Below, one piece after another: positions 53,138 to 64,000 of a DNA stretch of 64,000 nt. The notes below the pieces were generated by a model. That model was given only the letters and a program-made list of their open reading frames with translations. It ran no database searches and had not been told where the DNA came from. Where the stretch lies: positions 1,612,001 to 1,676,000 of the forward strand of contig NZ_LVJW01000003.1 in NCBI RefSeq assembly GCF_001708965.1, given 5' to 3'. Made by a program: the position numbers and the translations under genes. Origin of the DNA: Candidatus Thiodiazotropha endoloripes. GTDB taxonomy: Bacteria > Pseudomonadota > Gammaproteobacteria > Chromatiales > Chromatiaceae. Positions within the stretch are counted from its first letter, which is position 1, and each line of letters starts with the position of its first letter.

Positions 53138-53259
53138 TCTCTTCTGTCTGTGATCACTGAGTCCAGTGATCGCACCTCAATATTTTTCAACAGGTAAGTC
53201 TGTTGATTATTACCAGCGACGTTTGTCGGTGGTCTGATGTGCAGAGGAAGAAAAATACG

Positions 53260-55155
53260 ATGAGTGAGAATCATAATTCCATACATAACGGTGGTGGTTT
53301 TAATTTGTCACGCCGCCGCTTTGTCAAAGGTCTGGCCTTGGGCGGCGCCTTCACTGGGCTTGGCTTCGGTGGATCTGTGTTCGCTGCCACCATGAAACAA
53401 GCGAGACCACTAGCGCTACGGGGTACCGAATTCGACTTAACCCTGGCAGAACAGGCAGTCAACTTCACCGGGGCTCCCCGTGTTGCCACCACAGTGAACG
53501 GCTCCCTGCCAGCGCCGCTCCTACGCTGGCGCGTCGGTGATACGGTCACCCTTCGGGTGACCAATCTGCTGCCGGAAACCAGCTCCATCCACTGGCACGG
53601 TATCATCCTACCGAGCGCCATGGATGGCGTACCGGGTATCGCCGATGACTTTCAGGGTATCCGCTCCGGAGAGACTTTCATCTACCGTTTCCCAGTGACT
53701 CAGAGCGGTACCTACTGGTATCACAGCCACTCCGGTTTCCAGGAACAGACTGGTCTTTACGGTCCCATCATTATCGATCCCCGTGAATCGGATCCTGTCG
53801 AATACGACCGGGATTATGTGGTGATGTTATCCGACTGGACGGACGAAGACCCCAACGATGTCTACCGCAAGCTGAAGAAACTCAGCCACTACTACAACTT
53901 CAATGAGCGCACCCATGCCGATCTGGTGAGGGATTTAAAGGCAAAGGGACTGAAAGCCACCTGGAACGACCGCAAGATGTGGAATCGGATGCGTATGAGC
54001 CAGCGCGATCTCTCCGATGTCACCGGATATACATATACCTTCCTTACCAACGGCTTCACACCAGCTGAAGGCTGGAGCGGCCTGTTCAGAAAGGGCGAAA
54101 AAGTGCGTCTGCGCTTCATCAACGGATCTGCCATGACCTTTTTCGATGTTCGGATACCCGGCCTGAAAATGACGGTGGTGGCTGCTGACGGACAGAACCT
54201 CGAGCCGGTTACGGTAGATGAGTTCCGTCTCGGCGTAGCGGAGACCTACGATGTCATCGTTGAACCCAAACACGACATGGCCTACACGATTTTCGCCCAG
54301 GACATTGCACGCACCGGCTTCGCTCGGGCTACGCTGACACCGGACCCATCGATGGCCGCTGAGATTCCCGAAATGGATCCGGTGCCCGATCTCGGTCACA
54401 ACGACATGGGCATGGGTGTGCACGGCATGGAACACGCGGGGCATGACATGAGCGCGATGAATCACGCCCAGCATCAGATGCCCGATGGGCAGATGATGTC
54501 GGGTATGGACCACAGTAAGCATCAGATGCCCAATGCACAGATGATGCCCGGCATGGATCACAGCCAGCATCAGAGGACGATGAGTGGTGGAGTGGATAAA
54601 GCAACGCTTAAGCCCAATCCCTCCGATTTCACAGCAGGTCCTGTCACCCATGCGATGACCGAATATGGTCCCCACGTCGATATGCGCGCCGACGCACCCC
54701 AATACCGGCTGGATGATCCCGGCGTCGGTCTGCGCAATAATAGTCGTCGTGTATTGACCTATGCTGATTTGCGCAACCTGCGGGTCTCAGCCGATCTGCG
54801 CGAGCCAGACCGGGAGATCGAACTTCACCTCACCGGCAACATGGGACGCTACATGTGGTCGATCAACGGGGTCAAGCATGCCGACGCCGAGCCCTTGCGC
54901 TGGAAGCTAGGCGAGCGCCTGCGTATCACTTTCATCAACGACTCCATGATGAACCATCCGATGCATTTACACGGCATGTGGAGCGACCTGGAGACGGGCG
55001 ACAACAACTTCCTTCCGCGTAAACACACGGTGGTTGTGCAGCCAGGATCGCGTATCAGTTACCGGGTAACCGTGGACGCTGAAGGGGGATGGGCCTACCA
55101 CTGCCATCTTCTCTACCACATGCTCGGTATGTTCCGCACCGTGATCGTCAGTTGA
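53260..55155 (+). CDS. copA: Multicopper oxidase CopA (copper resistance)
   Basis: 631 residues from the ATG at 53260 (AGGAAG upstream); a TTG extension to 53203 was excluded. A Tat signal (SRRRFVKGLALG) exports the folded protein. Copper motifs are complete: SIHWHGI, WYHSHSG, HPMHLHGMW and the T1/T2/T3 site YHCHLLYHMLGMF. A Met/His-rich insertion (about 380-443) repeats MPDGQMMSGMDHSKHQ-like units and will bind Cu(I). It oxidises Cu(I) to Cu(II) in the periplasm. It is followed by copB. Confidence 0.95.
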   Translation: MSENHNSIHNGGGFNLSRRRFVKGLALGGAFTGLGFGGSVFAATMKQARPLALRGTEFDLTLAEQAVNFTGAPRVATTVNGSLPAPLLRWRVGDTVTLRVTNLLPETSSIHWHGIILPSAMDGVPGIADDFQGIRSGETFIYRFPVTQSGTYWYHSHSGFQEQTGLYGPIIIDPRESDPVEYDRDYVVMLSDWTDEDPNDVYRKLKKLSHYYNFNERTHADLVRDLKAKGLKATWNDRKMWNRMRMSQRDLSDVTGYTYTFLTNGFTPAEGWSGLFRKGEKVRLRFINGSAMTFFDVRIPGLKMTVVAADGQNLEPVTVDEFRLGVAETYDVIVEPKHDMAYTIFAQDIARTGFARATLTPDPSMAAEIPEMDPVPDLGHNDMGMGVHGMEHAGHDMSAMNHAQHQMPDGQMMSGMDHSKHQMPNAQMMPGMDHSQHQRTMSGGVDKATLKPNPSDFTAGPVTHAMTEYGPHVDMRADAPQYRLDDPGVGLRNNSRRVLTYADLRNLRVSADLREPDREIELHLTGNMGRYMWSINGVKHADAEPLRWKLGERLRITFINDSMMNHPMHLHGMWSDLETGDNNFLPRKHTVVVQPGSRISYRVTVDAEGGWAYHCHLLYHMLGMFRTVIVS

Positions 55156-55168
55156 GGAGGTAGAGATA

Positions 55169-55867
55169 ATGAAAAGAACAACACTATTCCTTTTGGCGAT
55201 GGCTCTGTCGCTACCGCTGTTTGCCGGTGGTAAGGACGATCCGCTGGTCTACAAAGTGATGATCGATCAGTTGGAGACCCGCATTACCGACGGCTCCAAT
55301 CCTTTGGTGCTTGAGGCGGACGCGTGGGTTGGTTACGACCTGCATAAATTCTGGTTCAAAACCGATGTGGAGCGAGTAGACGGCGAAACCGAGGAGGCGG
55401 AAATACAACTCCTATACAGTCGTGCGATCTCACCATTCTGGGATATCCAGGCCGGCTGGCGCCGCGATATCAAACCGAAGCCGGATCGGGACTATCTGAC
55501 TCTCGCCTTCAAAGGATTGGCACCCTATCTTTTTGAGGTAGATGCCGGCCTCTTTATTGGTGAATCGGGACGAATCAATGCACGTCTGGATGCGGAGTAC
55601 GAGTACATGCTTACCCAGAAGTGGGTGTTGTCACCTGAGCTTTCGATGAACCTCTACAGTAAAGATGACGAAGAGCGTGGCATCGGTTCCGGACTCTCCG
55701 ATATGTCGCTGGGACTGAGGTTACGGTACGAAATCCGGCGAGAGTTCGCACCCTACATCGGCGTCAACTGGCGCAAACAGTTTGGCGATACCGCCGACTT
55801 CACCGAAGCCGAGGACGAAGATACCAGCGATACTCAATTTGTGGTCGGAATTCGTGCCTGGTTCTGA
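55169..55867 (+). CDS. copB: Copper resistance outer-membrane protein CopB
   Basis: 232 residues. A signal peptide ends at LFAGG. The body matches the C-terminal barrel of CopB/PcoB (LEADAWVGYDLHKFWFKTDVERVDG, IQAGWRRDI, FEVDAGLFIGESGRINARLDAEYEYMLTQ, PYIGVNWRKQFG). It lacks the Met-rich N-terminal extension of the long forms. It is the outer-membrane partner of CopA and starts 13 bases after it. Confidence 0.9.
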   Translation: MKRTTLFLLAMALSLPLFAGGKDDPLVYKVMIDQLETRITDGSNPLVLEADAWVGYDLHKFWFKTDVERVDGETEEAEIQLLYSRAISPFWDIQAGWRRDIKPKPDRDYLTLAFKGLAPYLFEVDAGLFIGESGRINARLDAEYEYMLTQKWVLSPELSMNLYSKDDEERGIGSGLSDMSLGLRLRYEIRREFAPYIGVNWRKQFGDTADFTEAEDEDTSDTQFVVGIRAWF

Positions 55868-55914
55868 CCATATCAACCATGTCCATCTCATGAATCCAGG
55901 GAAGGAGTCGAGTG

Positions 55915-56442
55915 GTGGTAAAAAAGAGCATCAACACAATGAAGAGAAGACAATTATTTGTAATTACACTGCTGACGATCGGGTTGGTGAGTTGTAGTGA
56001 CCAGAAGAACGCAAACACAATAAGTAGCAGTGATCCAGAGCCAAGATTACTAACTATTCAGTCAGCACGTTGGTATACACAAACGCAAGTCACACGGGGG
56101 CAGGGTTTATACCAAATGCACTGTGCCGAATGCCATAAACCGGACGCTTCAGGTACGACTGAGTGGCGCACCTTGGACGCCAATGGAAAACTGCCCCCAC
56201 CACCACTCAATGGCACGGCTCACACCTGGCATCACCCCCTGTCCGTTCTGCGCCGTACTGTCAGACACGGCGGTGTGCCATTAGGAGGAAGCATGCCGGG
56301 TTTTTCCGACAAGCTTTCAGCTGAACAGATCGATGCCATTCTGGCATGGATACAAACTCATTGGTCGGATGAGATCTACCGCATCTGGCATGAACGCGAT
56401 AATCAAGCCAACACAAGATTACAGTCCATAAAAAAGGGCTAA
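55915..56442 (+). CDS. Lipoprotein c-type cytochrome
   Basis: 175 residues from the GTG at 55915, seven bases after AAGGAG; GTG 55912 and ATG 55939 are alternatives. A lipobox (LVSC) ends the signal. The single heme site is CAECH, near residue 66, with a probable axial Met in GGSMPGF. LSAEQIDAILAWIQ is the usual class I end. Placed between CopB and DUF411, it may exchange electrons with the copper oxidase. Confidence 0.88.
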   Translation: MVKKSINTMKRRQLFVITLLTIGLVSCSDQKNANTISSSDPEPRLLTIQSARWYTQTQVTRGQGLYQMHCAECHKPDASGTTEWRTLDANGKLPPPPLNGTAHTWHHPLSVLRRTVRHGGVPLGGSMPGFSDKLSAEQIDAILAWIQTHWSDEIYRIWHERDNQANTRLQSIKKG

Positions 56443-56466
56443 AACTTTATTTATAGGGAGTACCCA

Positions 56467-56964
56467 ATGGCAAAGAAACAAGCAGAGAGATTAAAGCAAA
56501 CCGTTACCCGCACAACACTGGCAGGTTCACTCCTTGTGGGAGTGATGCTGCTTATCGGGGGACTGTTACTCGATCAGCGACCTGCAAAGGCTGACGATGT
56601 GGTTGTCTACAAAAGCCCGACCTGCGGATGCTGTAAAGCGTGGGTCAGCCACCTGCGGGAGAATGGATTTAAGGTCACCGTCCACGACAGGCGCAATATG
56701 GACCCCATCAAGCGCAAAATGGGTGTTCCCCGGCGGCTACAGTCCTGTCACACCGCACAAGTGGGTGAGTACGTGATAGAAGGTCACGTGCCCGCCGCCG
56801 ATATCGTCCGTTTGTTACGGGAGAAACCACTGGTTAAGGGACTGACTGCACCCGGCATGCCCATGGGTTCTCCGGGAATGGAAGGGCCGAGAAAAGATCC
56901 CTATGAGGTACTGACGTTTCAGCCGGATGGAAAGACAAGTGTTTATGCCCGTCACAATCAGTAG
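56467..56964 (+). CDS. DUF411 metal-binding protein
   Basis: 165 residues. A single hydrophobic signal or anchor (about 20-42) precedes the DUF411 domain: VVYKSPTCGCCKAWVSHL, then LQSCHTAQVGEYVIEGHVPA. The CGCC and SCHT motifs are the candidate copper ligands. GMPMGSPGME near the end adds Met residues. DUF411 proteins occur widely in copper and silver resistance loci and are thought to bind copper in the periplasm. Confidence 0.92.
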   Translation: MAKKQAERLKQTVTRTTLAGSLLVGVMLLIGGLLLDQRPAKADDVVVYKSPTCGCCKAWVSHLRENGFKVTVHDRRNMDPIKRKMGVPRRLQSCHTAQVGEYVIEGHVPAADIVRLLREKPLVKGLTAPGMPMGSPGMEGPRKDPYEVLTFQPDGKTSVYARHNQ

Positions 56965-56972
56965 GAAATGTT

Positions 56973-57401
56973 ATGAACAATAAATTACATCCCTTCATCA
57001 GCCTGATACTGCTGATGGTGCCACTCACGATCACAGCCCACACGCCACCGCCTGGTGCCCAGGTCTTTTTCATCGGCATCAAGGACGGTGCGGTGGTCGA
57101 CAGCCCCTTCAAGGTCAGGTTCGGTATCAAGGGCTTCGGTATCACACCGGCAGGTACGAAAGGCAAGATCCGCCACCTGGCGGGGCATCACCACCTGTTG
57201 ATCAATGTGGATCAACTGCCCGATCTGGACAGTCCCATTCCCCGAGATGAGGCCCATCTGCATTTCGACAACGGTGAGACGGAAGCGGTACTGGACCTGC
57301 CACCCGGCACCCACACCCTGCAACTGCTGTTAGGAGACGAAGACCACGAACCGCAAGATCCGGCGCTGATGTCAGAGAAGATCACTGTGAGAGTTAAGTA
57401 A
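56973..57401 (+). CDS. DUF4399 exported protein
   Basis: 142 residues. A signal peptide ends near ITAHT. The DUF4399 marks are GAVVDSPFKVRFGIKGFGI, AGHHHLLINVDQLPD and LPPGTHTLQLLLGDEDHEP. The His-His pair could bind metal. The domain is usually found in periplasmic or outer-membrane associated proteins of unclear role. It starts eight bases after the DUF411 stop, so it belongs to the copper operon. Confidence 0.9.
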   Translation: MNNKLHPFISLILLMVPLTITAHTPPPGAQVFFIGIKDGAVVDSPFKVRFGIKGFGITPAGTKGKIRHLAGHHHLLINVDQLPDLDSPIPRDEAHLHFDNGETEAVLDLPPGTHTLQLLLGDEDHEPQDPALMSEKITVRVK

Positions 57402-58806: not shown

Positions 58807-59598
58807 TTAACCATACCGACCTTCAATATAATCCGCCGTCTCCTTCTGCTCCGGGGTAACAAACAGATCTTCTGTCGCTTGATGCTCGATCACTCTACCC
58901 ATCAGCATGAAGATACACTCTTCACTGGCCCGTCTGGCCTGAGCCATGTTGTGGGTCACAATCAGGATGGTGTATTCACCACGCAGTTCCCAGATCAACT
59001 CCTCTACTGCGGCGGTTCCCTTCGGGTCCAAAGCAGAGCAGGGCTCATCCATCAGCAGCACGCTGGGTTTCACCGGCAGCAGCCGGGCGATGCAGAGTTT
59101 CTGCTGCTCCTCCAGTGAGAGTTCGGTGCCTTTGTTATTCAAACGATCTTTGACCTTCTCCCAAAGCAGCACCTGTTTGAGCGCGGACTCGACGATCTCA
59201 TCCTGATCCGCTTTGGAGCCCTTGTTGTGCAGGCGATGGCCGAACAGAATGTTGTCGCGGATAGAGATCGGCAGTGGGTTGGGGCGTTGGAATACCATGC
59301 CGATCTGCTTTCTGACCTGTACCAGTTCGACAGCTGGATCGTAGATATTGTTGTCCAGGACATTGATGTCGCCTTCGATACGCACATAGCCCAGACGCTC
59401 GTTGATGCGGTTGACACTGCGCAGAAAGGTCGATTTACCACAGCCGGATGGACCGATCAGCGAAGTGATCATGCCATTTCGAATACTCAGGTCCACATCG
59501 AAAAGGGCTTGAAATGTGCCGTACCACAGATTCAGCTTCCGGGTATGAATGGCATACTCTGGGGATTGGTTGTCGTCTTGATCTATTATGGCATTCAT
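58807..59598 (-). CDS. pstB: Phosphate ABC transporter ATPase PstB, degenerate signature (PstB1)
   Basis: 263 residues. Walker A (GPSGCGKS, 49-56), Q-loop Gln104 (VFQRPNPLP), Walker B (MDEP, Asp184, Glu185), D-loop (SALDP) and H-loop His216 (VTHNM) are all present. The ABC signature, normally LSGGQ, reads LSLEEQ (160-165). It is the last gene of the pst operon, after a second, different PstB. With the partner's intact signature it could form one complete ATP site. Alone, it could not form a normal homodimer. Confidence 0.95.
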   Translation of the reverse strand: MNAIIDQDDNQSPEYAIHTRKLNLWYGTFQALFDVDLSIRNGMITSLIGPSGCGKSTFLRSVNRINERLGYVRIEGDINVLDNNIYDPAVELVQVRKQIGMVFQRPNPLPISIRDNILFGHRLHNKGSKADQDEIVESALKQVLLWEKVKDRLNNKGTELSLEEQQKLCIARLLPVKPSVLLMDEPCSALDPKGTAAVEELIWELRGEYTILIVTHNMAQARRASEECIFMLMGRVIEHQATEDLFVTPEQKETADYIEGRYG

Positions 59599-59608
59599 GT
59601 TGGTTTTT

Positions 59609-59629
59609 GTATTCGTGTTAACAGGCTCT
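59609..59629. repeat. Palindromic repeat, copy 3 (half only)
   Basis: GTATTCGTGTT followed by AACAGGC and TCT: loop with one change and the right arm of the repeat seen at 29178 and 32930. The left arm is missing. It lies in the 42-base gap between the two pstB genes. Confidence 0.5.
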
Positions 59630-59640
59630 AAGCATCGGCA

Positions 59641-60456
59641 TCAACCGAACTTACCCTCGACGTAATCGCGGGTTCTCTGGTCCTTCACCTCGCCAGTGAA
59701 GAGATCTTCCGTATTGCCTACCTCGACACATTCGTTTTCGAGGAAAAAGGCGGTTCGGTCGGCCAGACGTCTCGCCTGTTGAACCAGATTGGTGACCAGT
59801 ATGATGGTCATATCCTTTTTCAGCTCTTTGAGCACATCTTCGATGCGCATGGTGGTGACCGGATCGACGGCAATCGAGAATTCGTCCAGCATCAGCAGGT
59901 CCGGATCCTGTGAGAGCGCTCTGGCGATGGTCAGGCGCTGTTGCTGTCCACCGGAGAGCAAGCTGCCGAGTGAGTTGAGGCGATCTTTCACCTCGTCCCA
60001 AAGGGCGGCACGGGTCAGACAGCGTTCAACGATGATATCCAGTTCGCTCTTACTGTTGATGCCTCGCAGCCTGGGTGACAGGGCAACGTTTTCATAGATT
60101 GTCAGTGGCAAACCCACCGGCAGGGGAAACACCACACCGATGCGGCTGCGCAGGGCGTAGATATTCTGCAGATTCTGAATATCCAGTCCATTGAATTTGA
60201 TCTGTCCCTCAACCGACATGTTGGTGTCGAAGGTGTCCATACGGTTGATTGATTTCAGGAACGAGGTCTTTCCCGCATTGGCCGGGCCGATGATGCCGAA
60301 CACCTCGTGCTCACGTATTTCCAGGTTTACCCCTTTCAGTGCGGTGTGTTGGCCATACTTAATGGTCAGGTCATTGATTTCCAGTTTGACCGGGGCCTCT
60401 TCCGCGACGGCAACCTGTTCTGTCTCGACTATGAGATTGGTATTGGGATTTACCAT
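59641..60456 (-). CDS. pstB: Phosphate ABC transporter ATPase PstB, degenerate Q- and H-loops (PstB2)
   Basis: 271 residues. Walker A (GPANAGKT, 57-64), the signature (LSGGQQQ, 167-173) and Walker B (MLDE, Asp191, Glu192) are present. The Q-loop Gln is Pro111 (VVFPLP), the H-loop His is Asn223 (VTNLV), and the D-loop reads SIAVDP rather than SALDP. These changes are opposite to those of the other PstB. It overlaps pstA by seven bases and so is co-translated with it. Confidence 0.95.
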   Translation of the reverse strand: MVNPNTNLIVETEQVAVAEEAPVKLEINDLTIKYGQHTALKGVNLEIREHEVFGIIGPANAGKTSFLKSINRMDTFDTNMSVEGQIKFNGLDIQNLQNIYALRSRIGVVFPLPVGLPLTIYENVALSPRLRGINSKSELDIIVERCLTRAALWDEVKDRLNSLGSLLSGGQQQRLTIARALSQDPDLLMLDEFSIAVDPVTTMRIEDVLKELKKDMTIILVTNLVQQARRLADRTAFFLENECVEVGNTEDLFTGEVKDQRTRDYVEGKFG

Positions 60457-61319
60457 TTCTTTTTACCTCGCAGATACATGCGGAAGGCGATCGAGATGCT
60501 GTTCATGATCAGTACCATGGCGATCAGTACCAGCGCCACACCAAAGGGCAGCTCTTCCGGTACGCCTGGTACTTGGGTTGCCACCACAAACAGATGCAGC
60601 GACATCGCCATGGTCTGATCGAATACGCCCTGAGGCAGGAATGGCAGGAAGAATGCCGCACCGGTAAACATGATCGGTGCGGTCTCGCCTGCGGTGCGGG
60701 AGACTTCGAGAATCACACCGGTCAAAATGCCGCTGATCGCATTCGGCAGCACAATCCGTCGGATGGTCTGCCATCGGGTCGCACCCATATTCCAACAGGC
60801 TTCACGAAACGCCTGTGGCACCGCTCTCAGTGACTCACGGGTTGATACGATGACGATCGGCAGGGTCATGATGGCCAGAGTCAGGCTGGCGGCCAGTATG
60901 CTGGTGCCAAAGCCGAAAAAGATGACGAAGGCACCGACACCGAAGAGCGCGTGAACAATGGACGGAACACCGGCCAGGTTGATGATGGCCAACTGGATGA
61001 TGCGGGTAAACCAGTTGTCCCCCGCATACTCATTCAGATAGATGGCTGCCGCTACACCCAAGGGCACAGAGGCGAGCAGGGCAACGGCAACGATCCATAC
61101 GGTTCCCAACAGGGCGGGGAAGATGCCGCCGGCGGTCATCCCATCGGTGGGATTGGTAAACAGGAAATCGATTGAAATAACACTGCCGCCTTTTGAAACC
61201 AGGGTGAACAGAATAATCGCCACCGGCACGATCAGCAGTATGGTCATCATGAGAAAAAGCATGCGAAACAGGCCTTGTACCCGTTTGTTTCTGGCATTCA
61301 GATCGGATTCTGCAAACAT
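60450..61319 (-). CDS. pstA: Phosphate ABC transporter permease PstA
   Basis: 289 residues. Membrane helices start at LFLMMTILLIVPVAIILF. The ABC permease coupling motif (EACWNMGATRWQTIRRIVLPNAISGIL) and FTGAAFFLPF are PstA-like. The start at 61319 lies five bases before the pstC stop. Its partner in the membrane is PstC. Confidence 0.95.
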   Translation of the reverse strand: MFAESDLNARNKRVQGLFRMLFLMMTILLIVPVAIILFTLVSKGGSVISIDFLFTNPTDGMTAGGIFPALLGTVWIVAVALLASVPLGVAAAIYLNEYAGDNWFTRIIQLAIINLAGVPSIVHALFGVGAFVIFFGFGTSILAASLTLAIMTLPIVIVSTRESLRAVPQAFREACWNMGATRWQTIRRIVLPNAISGILTGVILEVSRTAGETAPIMFTGAAFFLPFLPQGVFDQTMAMSLHLFVVATQVPGVPEELPFGVALVLIAMVLIMNSISIAFRMYLRGKKKW

Positions 61320-61324
61320 CTGCC

Positions 61325-62257
61325 TTACCCCTTACGGATGCCACGGACAATCAGATCCGCAGTCAGGTTGATCAGAAAAGTAATGATGAAGAGGAAGATG
61401 CCGATGGTGAACAACGCCTGATAGTGAGGCGAACCCACGGCGGTTTCACCCAGCTCTGCGGCAATGGTGGCGGTCAATGCCCTCACCGGATCGAACAGAC
61501 TGCCCGGAATATTCACCGCATGGCCGGTGGCCATCAGCACAGCCATGGTCTCACCGAAGCCACGGCCGACACCGAGCAGTACCGCGCCCAACAATCCATT
61601 TTTCGCAGCTGGCAGCACGGTCTTGAAGATCACCTGCCAGCGGGTTGCCCCAAGGGCCTCTGCGGCTTCCCGGTAACGGTCTGGCACCGCTTTTAGCGCA
61701 TCTTCCGCGATCGACGTCATGATTGGTGCCGCCATCAGTCCGAGGATGATGCCGGCATTCAACACATTCAGGCCGACCGGCACATCGAACAGATCGATAA
61801 TCAGCGGATTCATGATCGACAAGCCGATGAAGCCCCAGACGACTGATGGAATGGCGGCCAACAGCTCAACCAGTACCTTGAGTGTTTCGCGGACTTTTCC
61901 TGTAGCGAACTCACCGATATAGATGGCGGCGCCAAGAGAAAAGGGGATGGCGACGATCATTGCCAGACCGGTGACACTGGCGGTGCCGGCAATCAGTGCC
62001 AGGATACCGTACTCCGGTGCATCTTCATCAGAAGGTTCCCAGAAAGGTGAGAGGAAGAACTCCCTGAAGGTGAAATCCTCAAACAGAAACCCAAGTCCCT
62101 CCATGGTGATGAAGACAAAGATACCGATAATGAAGATGATGGCGGAGATGCCGGCAAAGAAGACAATAAGCTGAACAAACTTATCAATGTACCAATCTAG
62201 GTCCCGACGGTCGAAGTCCTCGGTTTTGGTTACCTTCATAGGAATGGCTTCGGGCAT
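61325..62257 (-). CDS. pstC: Phosphate ABC transporter permease PstC
   Basis: 310 residues from the ATG at 62257, with an excellent GGAGGG ribosome site; the frame is open to 62275 but that start overlaps the phoU-fusion end. Marks are SPFWEPSDEDAPEYGILALIAGTASVTGLAM, VELLAAIPSVVWGF, the EAA loop (EALGATRWQVIFKTVLPAAKNGLL) and VGRGFGETMAV. It imports phosphate together with PstA. The start follows the phoU stop by one base. Confidence 0.95.
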   Translation of the reverse strand: MPEAIPMKVTKTEDFDRRDLDWYIDKFVQLIVFFAGISAIIFIIGIFVFITMEGLGFLFEDFTFREFFLSPFWEPSDEDAPEYGILALIAGTASVTGLAMIVAIPFSLGAAIYIGEFATGKVRETLKVLVELLAAIPSVVWGFIGLSIMNPLIIDLFDVPVGLNVLNAGIILGLMAAPIMTSIAEDALKAVPDRYREAAEALGATRWQVIFKTVLPAAKNGLLGAVLLGVGRGFGETMAVLMATGHAVNIPGSLFDPVRALTATIAAELGETAVGSPHYQALFTIGIFLFIITFLINLTADLIVRGIRKG

Positions 62258-62258
62258 T

Positions 62259-63332
62259 TCAGGCACCCTCCCCACGAAGCAGTTCCATCAGGTCCTTAAT
62301 CAGTACGGCAAGCTGGTGGTAGAGATGATCAAAGTCATGACTGTCCTCATCATGGGGGATTTCGCCAAGCTCCCACTCCAGTGCAGAGGTATGGAACGGC
62401 AGTTTCGGCAGATAGGATTCAATATTGCCTTGCAGGCTGATGATTACATGTTGATCTGAGATCTCTTTTTCAGTCATCTGCTCGAGGCTGTTGATGCCCG
62501 CCTGACTATAGTCGATACCCTTGCTTTGCAGAAATGTGGCAAGATTACTGTTGATCTCTGCGGCTGCAACACTTCCCGCGCTGCTGTATCTGCCCACATC
62601 GGGGTGGTTACGACGGGCAATTGCTTCGGCCAGTTGGGAGTGACTGCTGTTGTCCTCATCGACAAACAGGATGTTGAAGATTTTAGGTTTCTTCTGCTCA
62701 CCGGTGACGGCAAATATCGTATCCTCACAGAGGTTTTTTGATTGATCGGCGATACGCTTGAGCTGGGTGAAGACGACAAAGATCGCCAGCACTTCAGCCA
62801 CCCGCTGACGATCGTCATTGGCCATCATCTCGGTATAGACGACGTCAAGATTGTGTTCCAGTTCATCCGCCATGACCATGGTGCTTTTTGCCAGTTCCGC
62901 ATTCAGTTCGGTGAATGCCTTGATCGACTGTTTCAGCATCAGCATGGTTTCACCCGCAACCCGGTCCAATTCTCTGCTGAGATTGCCACTGGGCGGTTCT
63001 GAGAGCTGCGCGGATTCACGGGCTATGGTGACTGCATAATCACCAATACGTTCCAGCTCGATATTGGCGCGGATCACCGATGAGAGCAGACGTAGATGGC
63101 CACCGCTGGGGATATGAATAGCAAAAAAACGGTGACAGATCCGATCGATTTCCCGCATACAGCGATTGATCGGGTTGTCATTCAATACCGTGGTAAAGGC
63201 GAGTTTTCGATTACCGGTCTGTAAGGCGTAAACCGAGTTCTTAACAGCCTCCTGAACCTGTGCCCCCATTTTGGCGACTCGGTCGTGTAGATCTTTGAGG
63301 TCTCGTTCTAATCGTTCTTCAAGATGGGACAT
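62259..63332 (-). CDS. phoU: PhoU fused to a catalytically degenerate LMW-phosphatase domain
   Basis: 357 residues. Residues 1-215 are PhoU, with two three-helix repeats (IELERIGDYAVTIA; LKRIADQSKNLCEDT). Residues 219-357 align with LMW-PTP/arsenate reductase folds: FNILFVDEDNSSHSQLAEAIARR, then YSSAGS. The P-loop Cys is replaced by Asp225 and the Arg by His231, and the usual Asp-Pro acid segment reads GEIP. The domain should bind an anion poorly and cannot act by the known mechanism. PhoU normally transmits transporter state to the PhoR kinase. The gene sits between pstS and pstC rather than last. Confidence 0.9.
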   Translation of the reverse strand: MSHLEERLERDLKDLHDRVAKMGAQVQEAVKNSVYALQTGNRKLAFTTVLNDNPINRCMREIDRICHRFFAIHIPSGGHLRLLSSVIRANIELERIGDYAVTIARESAQLSEPPSGNLSRELDRVAGETMLMLKQSIKAFTELNAELAKSTMVMADELEHNLDVVYTEMMANDDRQRVAEVLAIFVVFTQLKRIADQSKNLCEDTIFAVTGEQKKPKIFNILFVDEDNSSHSQLAEAIARRNHPDVGRYSSAGSVAAAEINSNLATFLQSKGIDYSQAGINSLEQMTEKEISDQHVIISLQGNIESYLPKLPFHTSALEWELGEIPHDEDSHDFDHLYHQLAVLIKDLMELLRGEGA

Positions 63333-63459: not shown

Positions 63460-64000
63460 TCAGTTGCAACTCACATCTCTGGTCGGGGCGTAGCCTTTTT
63501 TCTTCAGGATGCACTGGCCCACATCACTCTTTACCCAGTCCATATACTCTTTGATTTTGCCTGCAGGCTCACCATTGGTGTACATCAGCAGGGGACGGGC
63601 AATTGGGTAGCTGCGATCGCTGGCGGTTGAAACGCTGGGATTGACACAGGTTTCACCTGCCTGCTTGGCGATACAGGCCATTTTGATATGATCAGTCGCA
63701 TAGGCCAGACCGCTGTAGCCGATAGCGCATGGGGTTTTCTCTACCAGGTCGACTACATCTTTAGAGCCGTGCATGTCGAGGGTTCCCTGACGGAATTTGC
63801 CTTTTTTGCCGAGCACCGCCTTTTTAAAATAGGCGTAGGTACCGGAGTTGTTCTGCCGACTGACGACCACAATTTTATCACTCTTACAGCCCGGTACACT
63901 CAGGCCGAGATCAGACCACTTGGTGGCTTTACCGCCACGGGCAAATACTGCTTTCAGTTGATCGTAATTGAATTCAGTTGCTGGATTGTTGCTGTGAATG
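63460..64000 (-). CDS. pstS: Phosphate-binding protein PstS, C-terminal part
   Basis: The gene enters from the right edge; about 179 C-terminal residues are visible. VVVSRQNNSGTYAYF is the PstS phosphate-contact segment. CAIGYSGLAYA and YPIARPLLMYT are typical of the second lobe, and the ending VGQCILKKKGYAPTRD fits long PstS forms. Several Cys could form disulfides. It is the periplasmic receptor feeding PstCA, and the first gene seen of the operon. Confidence 0.93.
   Translation of the reverse strand, partial: IHSNNPATEFNYDQLKAVFARGGKATKWSDLGLSVPGCKSDKIVVVSRQNNSGTYAYFKKAVLGKKGKFRQGTLDMHGSKDVVDLVEKTPCAIGYSGLAYATDHIKMACIAKQAGETCVNPSVSTASDRSYPIARPLLMYTNGEPAGKIKEYMDWVKSDVGQCILKKKGYAPTRDVSCN

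Follow-up and report, generated by a model that had tools for sequence, protein, structure and literature searches.

Reciprocal motif losses in two adjacent PstB-like ATPases point to a phosphate importer that probably runs on a single functional ATP site

Two PstB-like ATPases with complementary motif losses

The window analysed here, the whole of a stretch of 64,000 nucleotides from Candidatus Thiodiazotropha endoloripes, carries on its minus strand a six-gene operon in the order pstS–phoU*–pstC–pstA–pstB1–pstB2 (phoU* being a fusion gene), which sits in contig C3 of a 4.46-Mb genome. Its last two genes, pstB1 (59641..60456, minus strand, 271 aa) and pstB2 (58807..59598, minus strand, 263 aa), both encode PstB-like ATPases of the ATP-binding cassette (ABC) type, and they are the subject of this analysis. 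There are no internal stops in either open reading frame (ORF), and the two proteins are 40% identical to each other. TIGR00972 (PstB) is still the best curated family for each of them, at 279.2 bits for PstB1 and 329.1 bits for PstB2, both below its cut-off of 343.2.

Read in order, the motifs of PstB1 are GPANAGKT, VVFP111LPVGLP, LSGGQQQRL, LMLDEFSIAVDP and VTN223, and those of PstB2 are GPSGCGKS, MVFQ104RPNPLP, LSLEEQQKL, LLMDEPCSALDP and VTH216. PstB1 has an intact ABC signature (LSGGQ, residues 167-171, 59944..59958), a Pro at the position of the Q-loop Gln (codon 111, 60124..60126) and an Asn at that of the H-loop His (codon 223, 59788..59790). PstB2 has its Walker motifs, the Q-loop Gln104 (59287..59289) and the H-loop His216 (58951..58953), together with a degenerate signature, LSLEEQ (residues 160-165, 59104..59121); all of these codons lie on the minus strand. 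The residues agree with the original prediction, which had described PstB1 as keeping LSGGQ with Pro111, Asn223 and an altered D-loop, had given the coordinates of both ORFs correctly, and had described PstB2 as keeping Walker A/B, Gln104, His216 and SALDP beside an LSLEEQ signature.

Each ATP site of an ABC dimer is a composite: one subunit supplies Walker A/B and the Q- and H-loops, its partner the signature (PMC7756269). By sequence, either PstB homodimer would have no complete site and two impaired ones, and, with the motifs lost reciprocally, the two canonical ATP sites of a PstB homodimer are not found here. At the same time, the Walker B catalytic Glu of PstB1 (E192) is kept in 80/80 of the named loci described below; as judged from its motifs, the PstB1 site is degenerate via the Q-loop, the H-loop and the partner's signature, not via the catalytic glutamate.

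Conservation, co-occurrence and deeper clades

When named genomes were scanned with the PstB1 alignment, at least 487 stretches came up, related at the permissive threshold of E<=1e-3 but not necessarily members of the same family; our named-locus set is the best 80 of these, and its counts describe the most similar loci. Pro111 and Asn223 of PstB1 are each present in 80/80 loci. LSGGQ is also present in 80/80, a count biased by the scan, whose patterns IIGPANAG and GGQQQRLT favour the PstB1 Walker A variant and the intact signature and so bias the apparent conservation of those two motifs, leaving the Q-loop, H-loop and PstB2 counts unaffected. PstB2 was located in 79 of the 80 loci, two of them cut at the signature, which begins with LSLE in all 77 readable cases (position 164 being E in 71, Q in 4, K in 1 and A in 1), and Gln104 and His216 are kept in 78/78 and 76/76 readable rows, respectively. 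These motifs stand in proteins with only about 40% invariant columns (102/258 in PstB1, 101/262 in PstB2), whose between-locus identity drops to 66% and 64%.

The same Q-loop, signature and H-loop pattern was found in both genes of 36/36 operons from the relatives and from surveys of the window's order and class, these being the ones read among the 53 genomes in which the order and class surveys had matched PstB1; this set partly overlaps with the 80 named loci, and the H-loop of one PstB2 (L047) was taken from a separate reading. Nine more loci came from the phylum survey: the PstB1 pattern agrees in all nine, and eight of the PstB2 extend as far as the later motifs; these retain Gln and His and have the signatures LSLEEQ (2), LSLEER (4) or LSLEEM (2), the last two forms belonging to L141, L142, L144, L147, L148 and L149. 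As a control, a search expression was applied to 25 other PstBs: it matched the Q-loop Gln in 24 of them, LSGGQ in 23 and the H-loop His in all 25, and the three cases without a match are failures of the expression itself; L162, being a PstB2, was excluded from this control. Both genes are under purifying selection, with median ratios of nonsynonymous to synonymous substitution rates (dN/dS) of 0.066 for PstB1 and 0.040 for PstB2 among ten genus members, as estimated from 32/45 and 25/45 usable pairs with near-saturated dS.

The original prediction had proposed looking for the two lesion patterns in neighbouring genes of other genomes, and they do occur together: in the order survey PstB1 was found in 47/210 genomes and PstB2 in 48/204, and all 47 PstB1 genomes have PstB2 adjacent, as seen from match coordinates. 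The sole genome of the order with PstB2 and no intact PstB1 is G115, which has a decayed operon (L139, G115:C1:2873000-2882000) with an open PstB2 frame and PstB1 in pieces over several frames; within the 9 kb examined there, no pstS, phoU, pstC or pstA matches were found. The PstB1 of G057 runs over two frames, on a small contig fragment containing eight undetermined bases. The pair-type match was seen in 8/369 genomes of the class sample and 24/349 of the phylum sample, the window's genome being included in each. None of the order, class and phylum surveys gave a full-length match between 67% identity and the limit of 1e-72, and at a limit of 1e-50 the next PstBs are at most 46% identical, a gap that is filled only by the Acidobacteria-type phylum described below.

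The closest named PstB1 matches belong to Candidatus Thiodiazotropha and other clam symbionts (L059 at 98% identity, L060 and L061 at 97%), and the record titles of the 80 loci, nearly all of them metagenome-assembled genomes (MAGs), range over Gammaproteobacteria, Accumulibacter, Dechloromonas, Alphaproteobacteria, Planctomycetota, Acidobacteria, Gemmatimonadetes, Nitrospirales, SAR324, deltaproteobacteria and Bacteriovoracaceae. With MAGs making up most of this set, an individual phylum label may reflect a binning error. In the class of a Planctomycetota-titled genome only 2/14 genomes match, that genome included. The phylum of an Acidobacteria-titled genome has a match in 29/247 genomes, which argues against binning error as a general cause. 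A mobile origin was considered and rejected: all matching records of the plasmid (3/3) and phage (22/22) collections are below 60% identity, those listed (3 plasmid, 5 phage) lying at 44.8-48.2%, and the two examined are canonical. Some contigs labelled as Listeria phage carry PstB genes; one of them, OR846873.1 (L180), has a canonical tandem pair and is probably bacterial chromosome.

Among the 29 matching genomes of the Acidobacteria-type phylum, 16 are at 67% identity or above, 11 at 53-60% and 2 at 49-50%, and 16 loci taken from 15 of them allowed us to read the motifs in more distant relatives. In what we call clade I, PstB1 has Pro and PstB2 has LSLEE and kin. Clade II (L196-L207, 12 loci, 53-60% identity) keeps Pro, Asn and LSGGQ in PstB1 in 12/12 loci, and its PstB2 has Gln in 11/11 readable cases, His in 10/11 and a signature of LQLEQ, LTLEQ or LQLDE. 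In clade III (L208, L209) the first gene has Ala at the Q-loop, Asn at the H-loop, an intact LSGGQ and a nearly canonical D-loop (motifs in 2/2), and the second gene keeps Gln and His with a signature of LSLEEK or LSLEQK. As far as these motifs tell, the asymmetry persists across three nested clades while the residues change. One further gene was seen in clade II, at L196:600-1484 (minus strand): a third ABC ATPase right behind pstB2, with about 40% identity to canonical PstB and several degenerate motifs.

In a tree built without very distant outgroups, the first clade III gene branches as sister to the B1 clade (100/99) and the second as sister to the B2 clade (100/96). When the motif columns were removed B1 and B2 remained single sides of a branch, though with lower support, the Shimodaira-Hasegawa-like approximate likelihood ratio test (SH-aLRT) values being 90 and 94 in a quick tree. 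From the clade III motifs and their position in the tree, both motif losses seem older than the Walker B and D-loop changes of PstB1.

In a number of genomes the pair is the only PstB found. Two sets of pair-bearing genomes, hand-picked and not random, were searched for others at a threshold of E<=1e-65. Of the first 17, six have no other PstB, four have a third below the family cut-off and seven have one above it; four genomes without the pair each have one PstB above the cut-off. Of the 24 named genomes, ten have the pair only, 12 have in addition a PstB above the cut-off and two another below it. The ten include two chromosome-titled MAG records, Dechloromonas sp. SSD3 and Thiotrichales bin102 (L075 in G906 and L121 in G916 are the loci concerned). 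A further PstB-like class, scoring 293-320 bits, below the cut-off, over model positions 4-246, was met at G006:C53:12483-13226, G017:C85:8239-8982 and G922:C457:2281-3018; the PstB2 of G922 is cut by the contig end.

The rest of the operon and its predicted role in phosphate uptake

Upstream of the ATPase genes lie, all on the minus strand, the permease genes pstA (60450..61319) and pstC (61325..62275), whose products both exceed curated equivalog cut-offs (TIGR00974, 261.3 bits over 193.45, and TIGR02138, 280.5 bits over 196.45). They are preceded by the phoU fusion (62259..63332) and by pstS, encoding the phosphate-binding protein (63460..64000 plus 344 bases past the window end; L009 7460-8344). 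The same genome has elsewhere a canonical pstS-C-A-B-phoU set (L010), whose PstB (C6:1454015) scores 403.3 bits.

The residues D110 (62/62 readable) and R163, S167, G168 and T169 (63/63 readable, in 65 rows), which we take to be the contacts of PstS with inorganic phosphate, are conserved throughout. Upstream of pstS, just outside the window (L009 8345-8644), there is a Pho-box-like direct repeat, CTGTCATATAGCTGTAATATTT, one mismatch from two consensus Pho-box units. With a limit of at most three mismatches within 300 bases of pstS, such a site was found in 26/61 asymmetric operons, the window's included, versus 1.7% of mononucleotide shuffles, and 10 of the 26 (again with the window) are Thiodiazotropha-type kin; in the window's genome, the canonical operon also carries such a site, at two mismatches. 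Neighbouring genes include PhoB adjoining the operon in L137 (338.3 bits over 296.2), a polyphosphate:AMP phosphotransferase over its cut-off in L124 and a Pho4-family transporter in L118. Given genomes where this is the sole Pst found, purifying selection, the PstS contacts, the Pho-box-like sites and the neighbour genes, phosphate import is likely to be the operon's job.

A few other neighbours were noticed. In L063, L066 and L067 a second pstS-like gene, an open frame beginning at the pstB2 end and 50-52% identical to the window PstS, directly follows pstB2. A 2-phosphoglycerate-kinase-like gene with an ATP-cone and an apgM-like phosphoglycerate mutase gene, both below cut-offs, lie beside the operon at L099:11744-12958 and L102:719-1957, and at L114:3364-5892 the ATP-cone and mutase parts are joined as one protein. 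Single-linkage clustering of neighbours (77 loci) placed the kinase-like and mutase-like genes in one cluster by way of a fused protein, and likewise put a hybrid kinase together with PhoB-like genes; its cluster sizes were left unused. In the window itself, positions 53203-57401 of the plus strand hold copper-handling-like genes, named by eye from the ORF list only, presumably a multicopper oxidase, an outer membrane protein, a cytochrome c and DUF411- and DUF4399-like genes.

The phoU gene encodes a PhoU (phoU_full, 135.9 bits over a cut-off of 130.25) fused to a domain with the fold of ArsC and low-molecular-weight protein tyrosine phosphatases, which reaches only 26.9 bits with arsC_pI258_fam, far below 174.3. 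The structural model (mean predicted local distance difference test, pLDDT, 90.9) matches PhoU 4q25 (template modelling score, TM, 0.94) and ArsC 1jf8 (TM 0.87 by target). At the catalytic Cys position 225, Cys occurs in 0/70 aligned relatives and Asp in 65/70, and at the loop Arg position 231, Arg occurs in 0/70; with catalytic Cys and Arg missing in 70/70, arsenate reduction by the fusion was rejected. Our best guess is that the second domain is a pseudoenzyme that binds phosphate or a protein and is coupled to the transporter. Matches extend into it in several clade II loci (e.g. L198, L205), while the PhoU of L208 and L209 is of normal size, 217 and 230 residues counted from where the match begins, and the fusion may thus be younger than the PstB asymmetry.

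A predicted PstB1-PstB2 heterodimer, its alternatives and its known counterparts

Taken together, we consider it quite probable that the operon encodes a high-affinity phosphate importer run by an obligate PstB1-PstB2 heterodimer in which one ATP site hydrolyses and the other is degenerate. PstS, PstC and PstA would import phosphate, and the ATPases would form this heterodimer and not a homodimer, each docking on one of the two different permeases. The active site, made of Walker A/B, Gln104 and His216 of PstB2 and the LSGGQ of PstB1, would hydrolyse ATP; the other, made of PstB1 Walker A/B with Pro111 and Asn223 and the LSLEE of PstB2, would probably bind ATP and hydrolyse it slowly or not at all, and we infer that one ATP would be hydrolysed per cycle. 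The predicted combination of one canonical and one doubly degenerate site is in this way borne out by the motifs, with the retained Walker B Glu and the D-loop as caveats.

Several observations weigh against this interpretation. The D-loop of PstB1 is altered (IAVD), and since it would, as we assume, sit at the dimer centre on the consensus-site side, the consensus site is not strictly textbook either. The A-loop-type Tyr, the Lys/Thr of Walker A and the Asp/Glu of Walker B are also present in PstB1 of 80/80 loci, so its site should still bind ATP and may retain some activity; in site 2 of MRP1, according to PMC7756269, an H-loop His-to-Asn change left transport wild-type-like. One clade II locus, L205 (G983:C164), has the only PstB2 seen with Tyr at the H-loop His; the closely related L206 has His there. 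In the tree B1 groups with 13 canonical PstBs (95/82) apart from B2, so that the two are no sister groups, and a simple duplication of one gene is therefore unsupported, and the pair need not stem from one. The mirror-distance correlation between PstB1 and PstB2 (0.70) is what would be expected for any two genes of the same operon. A PstB above the cut-off is also present in 7/17 and 12/24 of the pair-bearing genomes. As to the substrate, the PstS contacts are putative ones carried over from E. coli PstS, and 35/61 asymmetric operons have no Pho-box-like site at the limit used.

The retained PstB1 residues and the tolerance of Asn in MRP1 site 2 could also mean that the heterodimer forms and both its sites hydrolyse, with Pro/Ala, Asn and LSLEE as compensated variants. 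We regard this as unlikely: one composite site has lost three motif elements at once, with Walker A/B, Q, H and LSGGQ all present at the other, and the different non-Gln residue in the clade III Q-loop (Ala) points to loss and not to a specific replacement chemistry. It is somewhat less likely still that PstB1 and PstB2 work apart, one homodimer powering transport and the other being a signalling or regulatory subunit, given that neither protein alone has all motifs and that the losses are reciprocal in the pairs read, plus the His-to-Tyr change of L205; this idea draws on E. faecalis, where pstB2 is required and pstB1 accessory (PMC12096839), and on the unusual fusion of PhoU to a pseudo-ArsC domain in the operon.

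That the two genes are redundant copies next to a canonical Pst, altered by decay, by chance divergence or through sequencing error, would fit the 403.3-bit PstB elsewhere in the genome (C6:1454015) and the decayed operon of the G115 relative. Set against these are the invariance over 80 loci, the low dN/dS of both genes and the 6/17 and 10/24 pair-bearing genomes in which no other PstB was found, and we hold this explanation to be extremely improbable; drift, sequencing error and a pseudogene were rejected on the grounds of conservation, selection and sole-Pst genomes. The earlier view that drift explains the pattern poorly has gained from the data, since drift is made very unlikely by the invariance in the named loci, the low dN/dS and the deeper clades, which keep the asymmetry with other residues.

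Canonical PstB is a homodimer, and the E. coli PstSCAB entries 9k3s and 9k3x contain two PstB chains each; the E. coli PstB in them is the closest structure to the PstB1 model (pLDDT 91.0; TM 0.93 and 0.96 by target). The operon shares with canonical PstSCAB-PhoU the PstS, PstC, PstA and PhoU homologues, the PstB ABC fold, a Pho-box-like site and the predicted substrate. However, the canonical PstB is one protein with all motifs, whereas here there are two diverged proteins below the PstB cut-off with reciprocal losses, and PhoU is fused to a pseudo-ArsC domain, unlike its canonical counterpart. Two adjacent pstB genes in one operon are likewise found in Firmicutes (E. faecalis pstB1/pstB2; B. 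subtilis PstBA/PstBB), and a published model of the B. subtilis Pst complex contains both PstBA and PstBB (PMC11466899). At the same time, the two Firmicutes pairs checked (n=2), E. faecalis and L180, are canonical, unlike the window pair, and for E. faecalis PMC12096839 gives canonical motifs in both proteins and describes that excess PstB2 can replace the accessory role of PstB1, a substitution that would not be expected of an asymmetric pair.

Heterodimeric exporters (TAP, TM287/288, BmrCD, TmrAB) likewise have two different nucleotide-binding domains (NBDs) whose lesions leave one consensus and one degenerate site, and to this extent the suggested likeness to TAP and TM287/288 stands. It does not extend to the catalytic Glu, which PstB1 retains and which is mostly replaced in exporter degenerate sites (PMC7756269), and the system here is a binding-protein-dependent importer with separate subunits. 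Importers with one predicted degenerate ATP site are represented by RbsA/NupO (PMC11466899), which however are of type II; their NBDs are fused in one chain, and the lesions affect Walker A, Walker B and the signature of these halves. A literature search that had most subscription journals outside its scope found no description of an asymmetric PstB pair.

A broader interpretation, which we put forward tentatively and think possible but doubtful, is that these operons represent an ancient separate lineage of phosphate importers over several phyla, often the sole Pst, with one catalytic site, and that the PstB1 site would be an ATP-occupied sensor signalling the state of the transporter to the PhoU with its pseudo-ArsC domain, a relic of an anion pocket.

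The debate on two hydrolyses per ABC cycle and on the purpose of degenerate sites has mostly concerned exporters. Here, an importer of a single small ion would exist both as a symmetric pump and as one that is asymmetric by nature, with the two at times sharing a genome (7/17 and 12/24); the asymmetric pump probably has only one ATP site at work, and phosphate uptake offers an obvious growth assay. The pair also occurs in bacteria employed to take phosphorus out of wastewater: in the genus of an Accumulibacter-titled genome 19/28 genomes carry the pair-type match.

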